Source: a virus
DNA: 29,998 nt
Virus record (IMG/VR): IMGVR_UViG_3300037847_003586
Coordinates: 1-29,998 of that record
Reading direction: 5' to 3' (one strand)
Part shown: piece after piece, positions 20,138 through 27,575 of the stretch
Position numbering within the stretch: the first letter of the stretch is position 1
Layout of the letters: the number at the start of each line of letters is the position of its first letter
Position numbers and translations under genes: made by a program
The notes under the pieces: model-generated
The model's input: only the letters and a program-made list of their open reading frames with translations
Told to the model about the DNA's origin: nothing
The model's database searches: none

Positions 20138-20448
20138 ATTATTTAATTTTAGGCAAACAAGTGTTTGGTAATAACTTATCAGGTACAGAGTTTACAGAAA
20201 AACTTGTCATAAAAAGTGATAAGGAGTTTACAGATGAGCAACTTGTTAAAGCGTTTGAACGTCATCTTGTCTATCAATACACAAAGGAGGGTTGGGAAGA
20301 AGAAGAGTTTAGTACTTGGACAGAGGAGGATCACTTTGCTGTTTATGACGAGAATGGAAATGCTAATCATGTTGACTACATACTAAAAACACCTAATACA
20401 ATTCCTGATTTTGAGGAGATTGATATTGATGATTATTATGACGAATAA
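20134..20448 (+). CDS. Acidic hypothetical protein coupled to Mom paralogue 1
   Basis: The 104-residue product has a beta-rich start (MNYLILGKQVFGNNLSGTEF), helices (FTDEQLVKAFERHLVYQYTK), and a strongly acidic end (FEEIDIDDYYDE). It has no cysteine, so it is not a relative of the zinc-finger activator Com of phage Mu even though it precedes a mom gene in the same coupled way. It starts in the previous stop (ATGA) and its own stop overlaps the next ATG (TAATG at 20446-20450). It might regulate or assist the modification gene. Confidence 0.6.
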   Translation: MNYLILGKQVFGNNLSGTEFTEKLVIKSDKEFTDEQLVKAFERHLVYQYTKEGWEEEEFSTWTEEDHFAVYDENGNANHVDYILKTPNTIPDFEEIDIDDYYDE

Positions 20449-21155
20449 TGAGTATTAAAGATCAGTTTATTGTTAGGTCTATAGAAAGTTCACAGACTTA
20501 TGAGTGGTTTTTGCATAAACACTATGCAAAAAGAATCCCTAATATTTCTTACAGCTTTGGTTTATATGATCGCAATAAATTCTTAAAAGGTGTTTGTAGT
20601 TATGCAAAGCCTATGAGTCAAACCTTAGTTCAAGGTGCTTTAGGCGGTAAATTTACAGATAGTTTTTTAGAATTAAATCGTTTAGTTGTTAACGATAATT
20701 TAGAAAAAAACACGCTAAGTTTTTTTGTATCACAGTCATTAACGCTTTTACCAAAGCCACAGGTTGTAGTTAGTTATGCTGATAGCTCTTATTATCATCA
20801 TGGTTATATCTATCAAGCAACAAACTGGATTTATACAGGATTAAGTTCTAAGTTTACAGATTATGCTGTTAAGGGACTTGAGCATATGCACCATAGCTCT
20901 ATCGAGGACTCGGTAGGTCGATACGATAAAGATAAAAACATAAATAAGCACCAACTATTAAAAGAAAAGTATGGGGACTTGCTGTATAGAAAAGAAAGGC
21001 CGAGAAAGCATAGATATTTTTATTTTTTAGGGACTCGTAAACAAAAACAGCAAATGAGAGACTCGTTAACTTATACAGTTGAGCCTTATCCTAAAGGAGA
21101 TAACAAACGATATGATTCTAGTTATAACCCAAATACTCAAGGATTATTATTCTAA
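20448..21155 (+). CDS. Mom-family DNA-modification protein, paralogue 1
   Basis: The 235-residue product has the Mom pattern (GNAT-like fold): HYAKRI near residues 25-30, FGLYDRNKFLKGVC, LELNRLV (E75 to L79), SYAD (109-112) followed by the YIYQATNWIYTG signature, and a C-terminal RPRKHRYFYFLGTRKQ. Phage Mu Mom converts adenines of selected DNA sites to a modified base and so blocks host restriction. The likely role is to protect phage DNA. It is coupled to the acidic gene upstream by TAATG. A second paralogue follows at 21617; over the first 130 residues they align without gaps with 83 identities by my count. Confidence 0.85.
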   Translation: MSIKDQFIVRSIESSQTYEWFLHKHYAKRIPNISYSFGLYDRNKFLKGVCSYAKPMSQTLVQGALGGKFTDSFLELNRLVVNDNLEKNTLSFFVSQSLTLLPKPQVVVSYADSSYYHHGYIYQATNWIYTGLSSKFTDYAVKGLEHMHHSSIEDSVGRYDKDKNINKHQLLKEKYGDLLYRKERPRKHRYFYFLGTRKQKQQMRDSLTYTVEPYPKGDNKRYDSSYNPNTQGLLF

Positions 21156-21233: not shown

Positions 21234-21620
21234 ATGACACTAACTTACGAGCAAAAAGTTTATCAATGGGCATCAGGTCATTATTTAGATGATGATGTTC
21301 CTAACAGTTTTTTTAAATTATCAGATCAAGATCAGCTTAAGCATTTAGAAGACAATGCGTGGCAACCTTTTGAAAATTTTAAAGGCAAAGCTATCCACCG
21401 ATATATTTGGCATCTTGCAAATGATGTAATTATGAAAAGAGTGCCAGTTGAATCAACAGAATTTAATATTCAATCCTACTTACAAGATGAAATTAAATCA
21501 CTAAAAGAAGTTATTGCAGAATATATATCTCACAGTAGGTCTAAATGTGATGATGGTTCTGATGATTTTATTGAAGGTAAATTAGATTTAGCTGAAAAAT
21601 TATTAGCTAAAATTCAATGA
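21234..21620 (+). CDS. Hypothetical protein coupled to Mom paralogue 2
   Basis: The 128-residue product has a pattern VYQWASGHYLDDDVPNSFFK, then LSDQDQLKHLEDNAWQPFE and IHRYIWHLANDVIMKR, and a helical C-terminal region (LQDEIKSLKEVIAEYI). I do not recognise the family. It ends with an ATGA overlap (21617-21620) with the second Mom gene, so each Mom paralogue is coupled to a small gene before it, although the two upstream proteins do not resemble each other. One cysteine is present. It has the cassette promoter. Confidence 0.6.
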   Translation: MTLTYEQKVYQWASGHYLDDDVPNSFFKLSDQDQLKHLEDNAWQPFENFKGKAIHRYIWHLANDVIMKRVPVESTEFNIQSYLQDEIKSLKEVIAEYISHSRSKCDDGSDDFIEGKLDLAEKLLAKIQ

Positions 21621-22288
21621 GTATAAAAAATAAATATTTCGTTAGATTTATATCTAGCTCAGAATCTTACGAGTGGTTTTTAAAAAAACATTATGCAAAA
21701 AGAATACCAAATATAGTTCATTGTTTAGGTTTATATAATACTGATAAAGCTTTACAAGGTGTTATAAGTTTTGGCTTACCAGCATCAAGGTCTTTAGTTG
21801 TTGGTTCATTTAAAGGTAAATATCAAGATATTTTTTTAGAATTAAATAGATTATGTATTAATGAAAATTTAGAAAAAAATATTTTAAGTTACTTTGTTGG
21901 TCAATCAATAAATCTTCTAAAAAAACCTAAAGTCATTGTTTCATACGCTGATACATCACAAGGTCATAATGGTTATATTTATCAGGCAACTAATTGGATT
22001 TATACAGGGCTGTCTGATATTCATAAAGAGTGGCGAATGTATGACAGTAATTTACATAGTAAAAATGTTTGCAAACAATTTACGTTAGAGGAGAGAAGAA
22101 ATAATCCTGATAAATTTTATATGGTTGATAGACCTAGAAAACATAGATATTTTTATCTTCTTGGGACTCGCAAACAAAGACAAGAAATGAAAGACTCGTT
22201 GAGTTACGCAGTAAAATCCTATCCCAAAGGAGATAACAAAAGATACGATTCAAGCTATGCCCCAAGCACACAAGGCATATTATTCTAA
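21617..22288 (+). CDS. Mom-family DNA-modification protein, paralogue 2
   Basis: The 223-residue product closely resembles the gene product at 20448: HYAKRIPN at 25-32, LELNRLC at 74-80, SYAD at 109-112, YIYQATNWIYTG, and a C-terminus with RPRKHRYFYLLGTRKQ and KGDNKRYDSSY. It is 12 residues shorter because the central variable region (about 135-170) differs. That segment may decide target or partner. The duplication is old enough for many changes but the core is kept, so both are probably active. It could alter specificity, or one may serve a different host. Confidence 0.85.
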   Translation: MSIKNKYFVRFISSSESYEWFLKKHYAKRIPNIVHCLGLYNTDKALQGVISFGLPASRSLVVGSFKGKYQDIFLELNRLCINENLEKNILSYFVGQSINLLKKPKVIVSYADTSQGHNGYIYQATNWIYTGLSDIHKEWRMYDSNLHSKNVCKQFTLEERRNNPDKFYMVDRPRKHRYFYLLGTRKQRQEMKDSLSYAVKSYPKGDNKRYDSSYAPSTQGILF

Positions 22289-22591: not shown

Positions 22592-22671
22592 TTATTAACA
22601 AATGTAACAAAATAGCGGATTAGTACTAACTATCCGCTATATTGAATATGTAAACAATTTTACTATCTTTT
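22592..22671 (+). promoter_or_regulatory. Cassette promoter upstream of 22672, with 8-bp dyad
   Basis: AACAAATGTAACAAAA is followed by TAGCGGAT (22613-22620), TAGTACTAACT, ATCCGCTA (22632-22639), a perfect 8-bp dyad around the box. The leader TTTTACTATCTTTT precedes ATG. Confidence 0.6.
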
Positions 22672-24075: not shown

Positions 24076-24275
24076 TGACCTACCCTAACCCTATAAGTTC
24101 ACCTTATGTTTTATTCAAACCTATGAGTCAACCTTTAACACGAAAAGAAATAAAAGCTCAAAAAAGAGCTTTAGTTGAAGACGCTTGGTTCAACGGAGAG
24201 ATAAGTGACGATCAACTTGAAGCTGAATATAAGGCTTTAGGTATTGTTAACAAATGTAACAAACTACCGCAATAG
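24075..24275 (+). CDS. Small hypothetical protein whose 3' end overlaps a cassette promoter
   Basis: The 66-residue product has a Pro-rich start (TYPNPISSPYVLFKPMSQPL), a basic helix (TRKEIKAQKRALVEDAWFNG) and an acidic helix with the pattern ISDDQLEAEYKALG. The SHOCT-like or short helical-hairpin shape is suggestive only. Its last codons (VNKCNKLPQ) are made by the sequence GTTAACAAATGTAACAAA of the next cassette, so the regulatory element constrains the C-terminus. It is coupled to the DUF2786-type gene. Confidence 0.55.
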   Translation: MTYPNPISSPYVLFKPMSQPLTRKEIKAQKRALVEDAWFNGEISDDQLEAEYKALGIVNKCNKLPQ

Positions 24276-24304
24276 TATTATAATTTGCTATTGTATAAAT
24301 ATCA
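24243..24304 (+). promoter_or_regulatory. Cassette promoter for the structured RNA region
   Basis: GTTAACAAATGTAACAAA (24246-24263) lies within the preceding gene, then CAATAG (24270-24275) and CTATTG (24288-24293) form a dyad, with -10-like TATAAAT at about 24294-24300. Position puts a transcript start near 24305-24310, just before the stems of the RNA. Confidence 0.5.
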
Positions 24305-24530
24305 GGCATTTACGAGCTTTAGGTTTGTAAAACGATTACAGAAATCGCAGTTAGCCGACCTTAACAGTAATCCCGATCAGATAACTGGGTCGCAGTTTAG
24401 ACGAGGGTAATCGACCTAAATAAGTACTGTAAGTCCTGACAAAACATTAAGTAGGTGTTTGAAGGTAGTTCTAGACAAACAAACTTAATGGTGATTACAC
24501 ACAAGTGCGTACCTAATCACCGCCTACTCT
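24305..24530 (+). ncRNA. Structured RNA candidate, two domains with alternative stems (long leader or ncRNA)
   Basis: No gene covers 24276-24564. Domain 1: TTTAGGT 24318-24324 with ACCTAAA 24414-24420; CGATTAC 24333-24339 with GTAATCG 24407-24413 (contiguous on the 3' side); inside, CGACC 24356-24360 with GGTCG 24388-24392 and CAGTAATC 24365-24372 with GATAACTG 24380-24387 (one A-A mismatch). Domain 2: AGTAGG 24450-24455 with CCTACT 24523-24528 closes a three-way junction made of TGTTTG 24456-24461 with CAAACA 24476-24481 and GGTGATTA 24490-24497 with TAATCACC 24514-24521. Competing pairings exist: CATTAAGT 24445-24452 with ACTTAATG 24483-24490, and CGATT 24333-24337 with AATCG 24343-24347. 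It is either a separate RNA or the leader of the gene at 24565. I recognise no known RNA family. Confidence 0.55.
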
Positions 24531-24564
24531 ATCTTATTAACTTTTATTTTCTATCTTTAAGATT

Positions 24565-24915
24565 ATGAGCAAAACTCAAACTTCACTAAAAACAATTTTA
24601 TTAGATGCAATCAATGATGAGCTTGCAACTAACACTTATGACCACCCTATCTTAGATAATAGTGATACTAAGAATTGGTCAGATATGGATAAGTTTCAAT
24701 GGGCTTTTGATAAGTACATGATCGAGGTTGGTGGCTTTGAAACTTTAGAATACTGGTTTAGCGGTTTAGCTTTAGGTATTCCATTTACTCATTACCAAAT
24801 AGAGCAATTAGGTTACAATTCAGATACTTTCTTTGCTGACTTAGGAAAAGAGCTTTGCAGAATTACAGGATATTCAGATAATCCTAAAGCATATACAAGA
24901 AAGATAAGGAGTTAA
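24565..24915 (+). CDS. Hypothetical protein downstream of the structured RNA
   Basis: The 116-residue product is mostly helical: TSLKTILLDAINDELATNTY, then a WSDMDKFQWAFDKYMIEVGG region and GYSDNPKAYTRKIRS at the end. Aromatic residues are frequent. No family is recognised. Its leader (TTTTCTATCTTTAAGATT) contains CTATCTTT but is a little longer than in other genes. It could be under control of the RNA element. The next gene begins 2 bases after the stop, with GGAG upstream. Confidence 0.6.
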   Translation: MSKTQTSLKTILLDAINDELATNTYDHPILDNSDTKNWSDMDKFQWAFDKYMIEVGGFETLEYWFSGLALGIPFTHYQIEQLGYNSDTFFADLGKELCRITGYSDNPKAYTRKIRS

Positions 24916-25490: not shown

Positions 25491-25578
25491 GTTACAGAAT
25501 GTTAAGAAATACTGTAATAATACTAATAAGTAAAAATTTAAGCTATAGTAAGGGTGTTCAACAAACTATCTTTATCAA
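25491..25578 (+). promoter_or_regulatory. Cassette promoter upstream of 25579
   Basis: TTGTTACAGAATGTTAAG is followed by the direct repeat AATACT-N5-AATACT (11-base period) and a -10-like GCTATAGTAAG, then GTGTTCAACAAACTATCTTT before ATG. The whole arrangement is repeated before 26268. Confidence 0.6.
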
Positions 25579-27450: not shown

Positions 27451-27575
27451 TTGTTACAAAGTATTAAGAAGTACTGTAACAATACTAATAGGTCAAAAAT
27501 TTAGACTATATTAGATTCATAGGCGGTTTATTAACCAACTAACTCACACTATTTATTCTCTATCTTTTATTTATC
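27451..27575 (+). promoter_or_regulatory. Cassette promoter upstream of 27576
   Basis: TTGTTACAAAGTATTAAG, then AGTACT-N5-AATACTAAT, -10-like GACTATATTAGA, a longer untranslated stretch, and leader CTCTATCTTTTATTTATC before ATG. Confidence 0.55.

Follow-up and report, generated by a model that had tools for sequence, protein, structure and literature searches.

Constant adapter stem and exchangeable inserts in a structured RNA cassette of a probable cyanobacterial siphovirus

Several groups of structured phage and viral RNAs have been described. The stable RNAs C and D of phage T4 and other phage sRNAs are short structured transcripts without known function, type III toxin-antitoxin RNAs (ToxI) and phage pseudo-ToxI RNAs form tandem pseudoknotted units, extra copies of which benefit phages, and viral exonuclease-resistant RNAs (xrRNAs) are pseudoknotted. 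In the gene leaders of T4-like cyanophages, comparative genomics has revealed structured RNAs (manA, wcaG, PhotoRC-II and glnA/Downstream-peptide) that have fixed gene associations and single consensus folds and are included in Rfam (Weinberg et al. 2010; PMC2864571), while 5' stabilising stem-loops of the ompA/B. subtilis type begin the transcript with a hairpin and continue in an unstructured leader (PMC3997798).

The RNA locus analysed here, located in a 29,998-nucleotide stretch of viral DNA (IMG/VR record IMGVR_UViG_3300037847_003586; the whole stretch is called the window), has something in common with each of these systems. Like T4 RNAs C and D and other phage sRNAs it is short and structured; to our knowledge, neither adapter nor cassette exchange is known for those RNAs. 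Its tandem units with pseudoknots recall ToxI and pseudo-ToxI, but they are unrelated in sequence and have only their closing stem in common; near-identical repeats of the type III kind are lacking (the tandem inserts of relative L025 share only the adapter), and the neighbouring genes match no toxin family in PHROGs. A compact pseudoknot near the 5' end, in a host possessing a 5'-3' exonuclease, recalls xrRNAs in its general layout. Unlike the leader RNAs of T4-like cyanophages, none of which matches here, both the fold and the downstream gene reassort, and large, specific inserts that can be exchanged and have conserved loops set the cassette apart from the 5' stabilising stem-loops.

In agreement with the original prediction, the RNA could not be assigned to a known family: the Rfam 15 covariance models gave no match at the gathering cut-off, either in the window or among the related loci that were scanned, and only chance-level matches at permissive thresholds, while ARAGORN detected no tRNA or tmRNA in the window. 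A BLAST search of a phage collection with this region matched only AG-345-A17, and no T4-type coliphage was among the matches of two further searches. We found no description of these RNAs among open-licence papers, and one may exist elsewhere; the S-CREM1 paper, which promises many non-coding RNAs, lists only tRNAs and four Rfam elements. The cassette RNAs look like an undescribed family of exchangeable phage RNAs, and not like a genetic switch.

The cassette lies in a gene-free gap of 289 bases (24276-24564) between an ORF ending at 24275 and another starting at 24565. Two separate domains and an upstream promoter-like cassette had been predicted in this gap; both are present, as are the individual stems named in that prediction, and the promoter-like cassette resembles, in alignment, other promoters of the phage. 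The features are as follows.

24247-24263, plus strand: conserved promoter box TTAACAAATGTAACAAA, putative in function and kept in relatives
24279-24284 (TATAAT) or 24289-24300 (TATTGT/TATAAAT), plus strand: candidate -10 region, identified by a consensus scan and by aligning the phage's other promoters
24302-24313, plus strand: adapter 5' arm TCAGG-C-ATTTAC, pairing with 24429-24439 (pairing probability 0.73-0.87)
24429-24439, plus strand: adapter 3' arm GTAAGT-CCTGA, with TGTAAGTCC invariant in 11 units of 8 records
24302-24439, plus strand: domain 1, the insert closed by the adapter; its homologue (L037:630-780) is 74% identical
24318-24323 (TTTAGG) with 24415-24420 (CCTAAA), plus strand: domain 1 P2; one double change in L037
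24334-24339 (GATTAC) with 24407-24412 (GTAATC), plus strand: domain 1 P3; three double changes (AGTTGC/GCAACT in L037)
24356-24360 (CGACC) with 24388-24392 (GGTCG), plus strand: domain 1 P4; two double changes (CTATC/GATAG)
24365-24387, plus strand: domain 1 distal hairpin CAGTAATC/GATAACTG; its loop contains GATC, as read from the sequence
24450-24528, plus strand: domain 2, P1 (24450-24457/24521-24528) around an H-type pseudoknot
24463-24467/24510-24514, plus strand: domain 2 P2, crossing P3
24491-24496/24515-24520, plus strand: domain 2 P3, crossing P2
24533-24564, plus strand: constant leader tail (..TTAACTTTTATTTTCTATCTTTAAG..), ending at the start codon of the next gene and kept across about 15 relatives
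24565-24915, plus strand: downstream gene (116 aa, no assigned function), exchangeable relative to the RNA

Further copies of the promoter box are present in the window at 22595 and 23215, and degenerate copies at 25492, 26695, 27454 and 28218. Transcription is expected to start between ~24291 and ~24301, and the adapter begins at 24302, i.e. at this predicted start or no more than ~10 nt from it. No plus-strand terminator was found downstream of the cassette in a scan of the window, and the RNA therefore probably belongs to an mRNA leader, unless it is processed. Terminator-like T-runs can be read 3' of domain 2 in L039 and L004, and not in the window. A promoter region of the window (22615-22643) and promoters of relatives also carry inverted repeats, both arms of which change together between copies (GCGGAT/ATCCGC, GCGCATTA/TAATGCGC).

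Relatives of the locus were gathered using the flanking genes and sequence patterns. In about 15 of them the promoter (...TTGTATAAATATCAGGC) and the leader tail (CTAACTTTTATTTTCTATCTTTAAG..ATG) are kept, and everything between is replaced: the middle of the locus is either empty or occupied by inserts of nine unrelated types, singly or in tandem arrays of up to three. The empty form is a hairpin, TCAGGC-AA-GCCTGA (L005/L028, L021, L022 and the first copy in L024), from which it follows that the insert is dispensable. Single inserts occur in L018, L019, L026, L027, L030, L035 and L037, and three unrelated ones in L025, while the window combines domain 1 inside the adapter with a separate domain 2, and in L024 domain 2 follows an adapter that is almost empty. 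Some inserts (e.g. that of L018) look unstructured. G-poor, seemingly unstructured inserts (CTAACTCACACTATTTACTAA..CACTAAGAA) recur at two loci (L018:6093-6160, L035:8729-8796, window 27509-27560), and not every insert is therefore a folded RNA. A second locus of like kind, in which a promoter is followed by a TAGGC hairpin, was observed in the window (27454-27560), L035 (8711-8796), L006 (7030-7190) and L030 (8965-9110); the hairpin carries an insert ending in ..GTAAGTCCTA in L035, and another structured-looking RNA (CTTAGNCCCACYCTTGAAAGC) is present in L006 and L030.

Most inserts are closed by the constant adapter (NNNGGCA...TGTAAGTCCNNN), typically as TCAGG-C-A(TTTA).../...TGTAAGT-CCTGA, whose NNN/NNN flanks covary. 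A search of 23 records for GGCAT...TGTAAGTCC yielded 11 units in 8 records (the reversed-pattern control yielded none), and the adapter bases outside GG/CC vary among these units and pair within each of them (TCA/TGA, CCT/AGT, CGA/TCA, TGT/ACA, CTT/AAT). When the flanks were permuted among seven distinct contexts found without a pairing criterion, 19 contiguous pairs were counted against 6.7 expected (p 0.0009); with the module-A units (see below) included, the count was 28 against 11.7, and 0 of 50,000 permutations were as good, for contexts that partly share descent and are not all independent. Judged from this covariation, the adapter is an RNA stem. Three further records (L042-L044) that had appeared to carry tandem adapters look like chance matches in coding sequence, which leaves L025 as the sole true match of that pattern.

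The window and L037 provide the only two distinct domain-1 sequences compared; they differ by six compensatory pair changes, with zero broken pairs in the compared arms. In the single-sequence fold the two outermost pairs of P2 have probabilities of 0.13 and 0.48. The distal hairpin of L037 (AAGAAAAC/GTTTTCTT) occupies the same place with entirely different arms, and again has GATC in its loop.

Domain 2 had been predicted to form a three-way junction closed by AGTAGG (24450-24455) and CCTACT (24523-24528). The closing stem is present, but the internal hairpin TGTTTG/CAAACA is specific to the window, and a conserved pseudoknot (AGGTA/TACCT) is found instead. Homologues of this domain (L024:4227-4312, L004:3264-3346 and L039:8425-8507) were aligned with that of the window (four distinct sequences from four viral genomes, ~85 positions). 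P1, of 8 bp, surrounds two helices that cross each other (WGGTA/TACCW and GTGRTT/AAYCAC); 98.7% of the cells in the alignment are paired, as opposed to 30-56% in slid controls. Five pairs are changed on both sides (three in P1, one each in P2 and P3), and one of these double changes, in a pseudoknot helix, is A-U to U-A. The covariance model R1 recognised the homologues with E values of 4e-21 to 8e-24, having been built from these same sequences. Three unpaired segments, GTTCTAG, ACTTAATG and GCG, are invariant. The domain occurs in the family of the window phage, in AG-345-A17 and in L039. Two other candidates, L038 and L041, proved to be chance matches, and a relaxed pattern recovered from viral contigs, beyond the known members, only tRNA genes and coding-like DNA.

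In the 84.5-kb contig L039, domain 2 is preceded by another module, designated A (GGCAAGGATCTATGGTTGTC...GTAAGTCC), which occupies the window locus in L035, a relative of the window phage. Unannotated gaps of Prochlorococcus phage P-SSM2 (55979-56037, with 100% identity across 59 bases), of P-SSM5 and of several SAG cyanophages contain it as well. Among eight module-A sequences, six pairs have double changes, and the unpaired segments CTATGGTTG and AAATTAC are invariant. Covariance models of module A and domain 2 detected no other full-strength copies in the records searched; a weak module-A match in AG-345-F15 (at 34060; E 7e-4) has no adapter and was left out. Neither the domain-2 nor the module-A pattern had any match in bacterial and archaeal genomes, and there is therefore no sign of a host origin. 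As read from the sequence, module A is nested in the arm of another RNA in AG-345-F15 and in the arm of a third RNA in AG-345-E15, and this third RNA carries yet another module in AG-345-O18/F15; statistical testing of the nested modules covered module A only, and the SAG viruses are unannotated. Phages of the P-SSM2 type contain long unannotated gaps, of up to ~700 nt, densely filled with segments that resemble RNA modules (e.g. GTGGTATGACTTAGTACC..GGTGAAGCACCTCTTGAGCATACCAC and GGTTCAGGTGTAAGCGATTCCC), some of which sit within arms of others (L069:500-1240, reverse strand, MH319750.1 26800-28400; L045:2081-2470; L048:2040-2460).

A search for compensatory changes had been proposed as a check of the original prediction, and such changes were found in both domains; the structure is convincing because of them. 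Comparison with relatives thus constitutes strong evidence that the structured RNA is real. It shows a constant adapter stem, placed after the putative promoter, that carries an exchangeable domain 1 and is followed by an independent pseudoknot, domain 2; we have little doubt about this anatomy of a real, modular and non-bistable RNA. These are most likely swappable accessory phage RNAs near the 5' end of an operon mRNA.

The best overall explanation, which we hold at not quite an even chance, is a modular structured RNA cassette with exchangeable accessory effector inserts. If transcribed from the promoter, the RNAs would come to lie at or close to the 5' terminus of an accessory-operon transcript; the adapter would close this end into a helix, and each insert would fold on its own. 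The inserts may then serve as accessory effectors made of RNA ("RNA morons"), targeting a component of the host or of a competitor through their conserved unpaired sequences, and they may be swapped between cyanophages by recombination in the constant flanks. The invariant unpaired segments suggest specific binding and not mere bulk, and diversity among close relatives, exchange between phage groups, and tandem and nested arrays are consistent with an effector role. That the inserts act in trans is a tentative proposal, rated at, or a little under, the level of the explanation as a whole. More speculative still is the wider view, that ocean cyanophages possess a large undescribed system of interchangeable RNA modules, effectors against host or competitor functions, forming an RNA counterpart of hypervariable anti-defence gene islands. 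In this view the modules would use one widely distributed adapter stem, and also the arms of one another, as sockets, and the system, which extends to the model phage P-SSM2, would have been overlooked because it lies in unannotated gaps. Prochlorococcus, the host of P-SSM2 and its relatives, is Earth's most abundant phototroph. If unannotated gaps of P-SSM2 do hold exchangeable nested modules under structural selection, protein-centred annotation has overlooked a whole layer of phage function. Because this model phage is available in culture, the transcription, processing and binding partners of its modules are directly testable. That close relatives have swapped inserts points to a part in conflicts with hosts or competitors, or else to a novel kind of mRNA protection in hosts with RNase E and RNase J.

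The latter possibility, which we regard as unlikely though worth serious attention, is that the adapter hairpin and the inserts act as a generic 5' shield of the phage mRNA against 5'-end tethering by RNase E and against the 5'-3' exonuclease RNase J. RNase J is found in every sequenced cyanobacterium (PMC10989914), host RNase E is induced by cyanophage P-SSP7, which keeps its own RNA protected (PMC9692554), and mRNA is stabilised by 5' hairpins in B. subtilis (PMC3997798), all of which agrees with such shielding, as do the position of the stem so close to the expected transcript start and the minimal 5' hairpin retained by the empty allele. Other leaders (window 22595, 23215, 25492, 26695 and 28218) also put a short hairpin (GTAAA/TTTAC, TGTT/AACA, GTTT/AAAC, AGTATT/AATACT) before CTATCTTTA-ATG, but the statistic is weak and suggestive only (mean 3.95 vs 2.73 pairs in 20 partly redundant leaders). 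Moreover, shielding leaves unexplained the conserved unpaired sequences, the long multi-module arrays (~600 nt in L069) and the fact that close relatives manage with a 14-nt hairpin. We place a trans-acting accessory RNA somewhat ahead of it.

It is improbable that the TGTAAGTCC/GGCA ends represent the ends of a tiny mobile DNA element, or a recombination or processing site, with the inserts as passengers. Although the loop of the empty hairpin is replaced precisely and units occur both in tandem and nested inside other modules, the flanking arms covary as an RNA stem and are not accompanied by target duplications, and the inserts themselves carry compensatory changes. In L027, moreover, the constant 3' arm is lost and replaced by ATGCCTGA, and a perfect stem (TCAGGCATAG/CTATGCCTGA) is restored.

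The main reading of the original prediction, namely that the gene at 24565 is controlled in cis by a bistable switch or riboswitch, would suit the leader position, the complex fold and the pseudoknot, but it is largely refuted and we consider it very improbable. In a transcript from ~24301 the rival stems have probabilities of 0.05-0.17, compared with mostly 0.7-0.97 for the conserved stems (some of whose outermost pairs fall below this range). One half of the supposed switch, CATTAAGT (24445-24452), is missing in all three other domain-2 homologues, and its partner ACTTAATG owes its invariance to something else, probably to being a conserved loop. The other rival stem, CGATT/AATCG (0.12-0.13 vs 0.73-0.86 for CGATTAC/GTAATCG in the window transcript), loses a pair in L037, where CGATTAC/GTAATCG is kept by three double changes. 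The competing stems are thermodynamically minor and not conserved, a bistable design is not supported, and two conserved mutually exclusive folds were found in neither domain 1 nor domain 2.

The neighbouring genes lead to the same conclusion. Homologues of the gene at 24565 sit elsewhere in L001 and L006/L018, and none follows the same RNA in L002, where the RNA is 99% and two upstream proteins are 100% identical to those of the window, and the two sequences diverge from the start codon onwards, continuing into unrelated genes. Conversely, the gene family MxNSTxTKFQEYTQYL occurs behind five different inserts and behind the empty hairpin, and the family MANxQKTYTEDLADFGYREQ behind three different inserts. 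With one RNA standing before different genes, and one gene found behind any of five inserts or behind the empty form, a leader switch is unlikely. The RNA and the gene behind it are reassorted freely, with no stable association with one gene or pathway of the kind typical for riboswitches, and no Rfam riboswitch matched. The second option offered originally, a separate phage ncRNA, fits the evidence better, although the prediction could not recognise a modular cassette in which a constant adapter holds exchangeable cargo.

An excess of structure over dinucleotide-shuffled controls, another check proposed originally, is present but modest: z is -2.0 for 24305-24530 (16 of 500 shuffles as good), -2.5 for domain 1 (24302-24441; 14 of 1000) and -2.2 for domain 2 (24442-24532; 28 of 1000). 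The minus strand gives similar z-scores, and z <= -2.5 is reached by 8 of 100 background segments of 140 nt from this genome. Taken by itself, folding energy is weak evidence for a structured RNA. The lowest z-score of the background set is -5.3, for the segment from 22501. Chance secondary structure in an AT-rich intergenic region would fit z-scores of about -2, which are not rare in this genome, but it is hardly credible, being refuted by the compensatory changes in three independent modules (domain 1, domain 2 and module A) from different viral genomes.

The primase-polymerase of the window phage is closest to those of Synechococcus phage S-LBS1 (57%, across 54% of the protein) and of cyanophage S-2L (31%, across 90%), and on this basis the phage is probably a cyanobacterial siphovirus, with a host proposed from that of its relatives. 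Two Mom-like DNA modification proteins (PHROG 1384) are encoded close together in the window (20448-21155 and 21617-22288).
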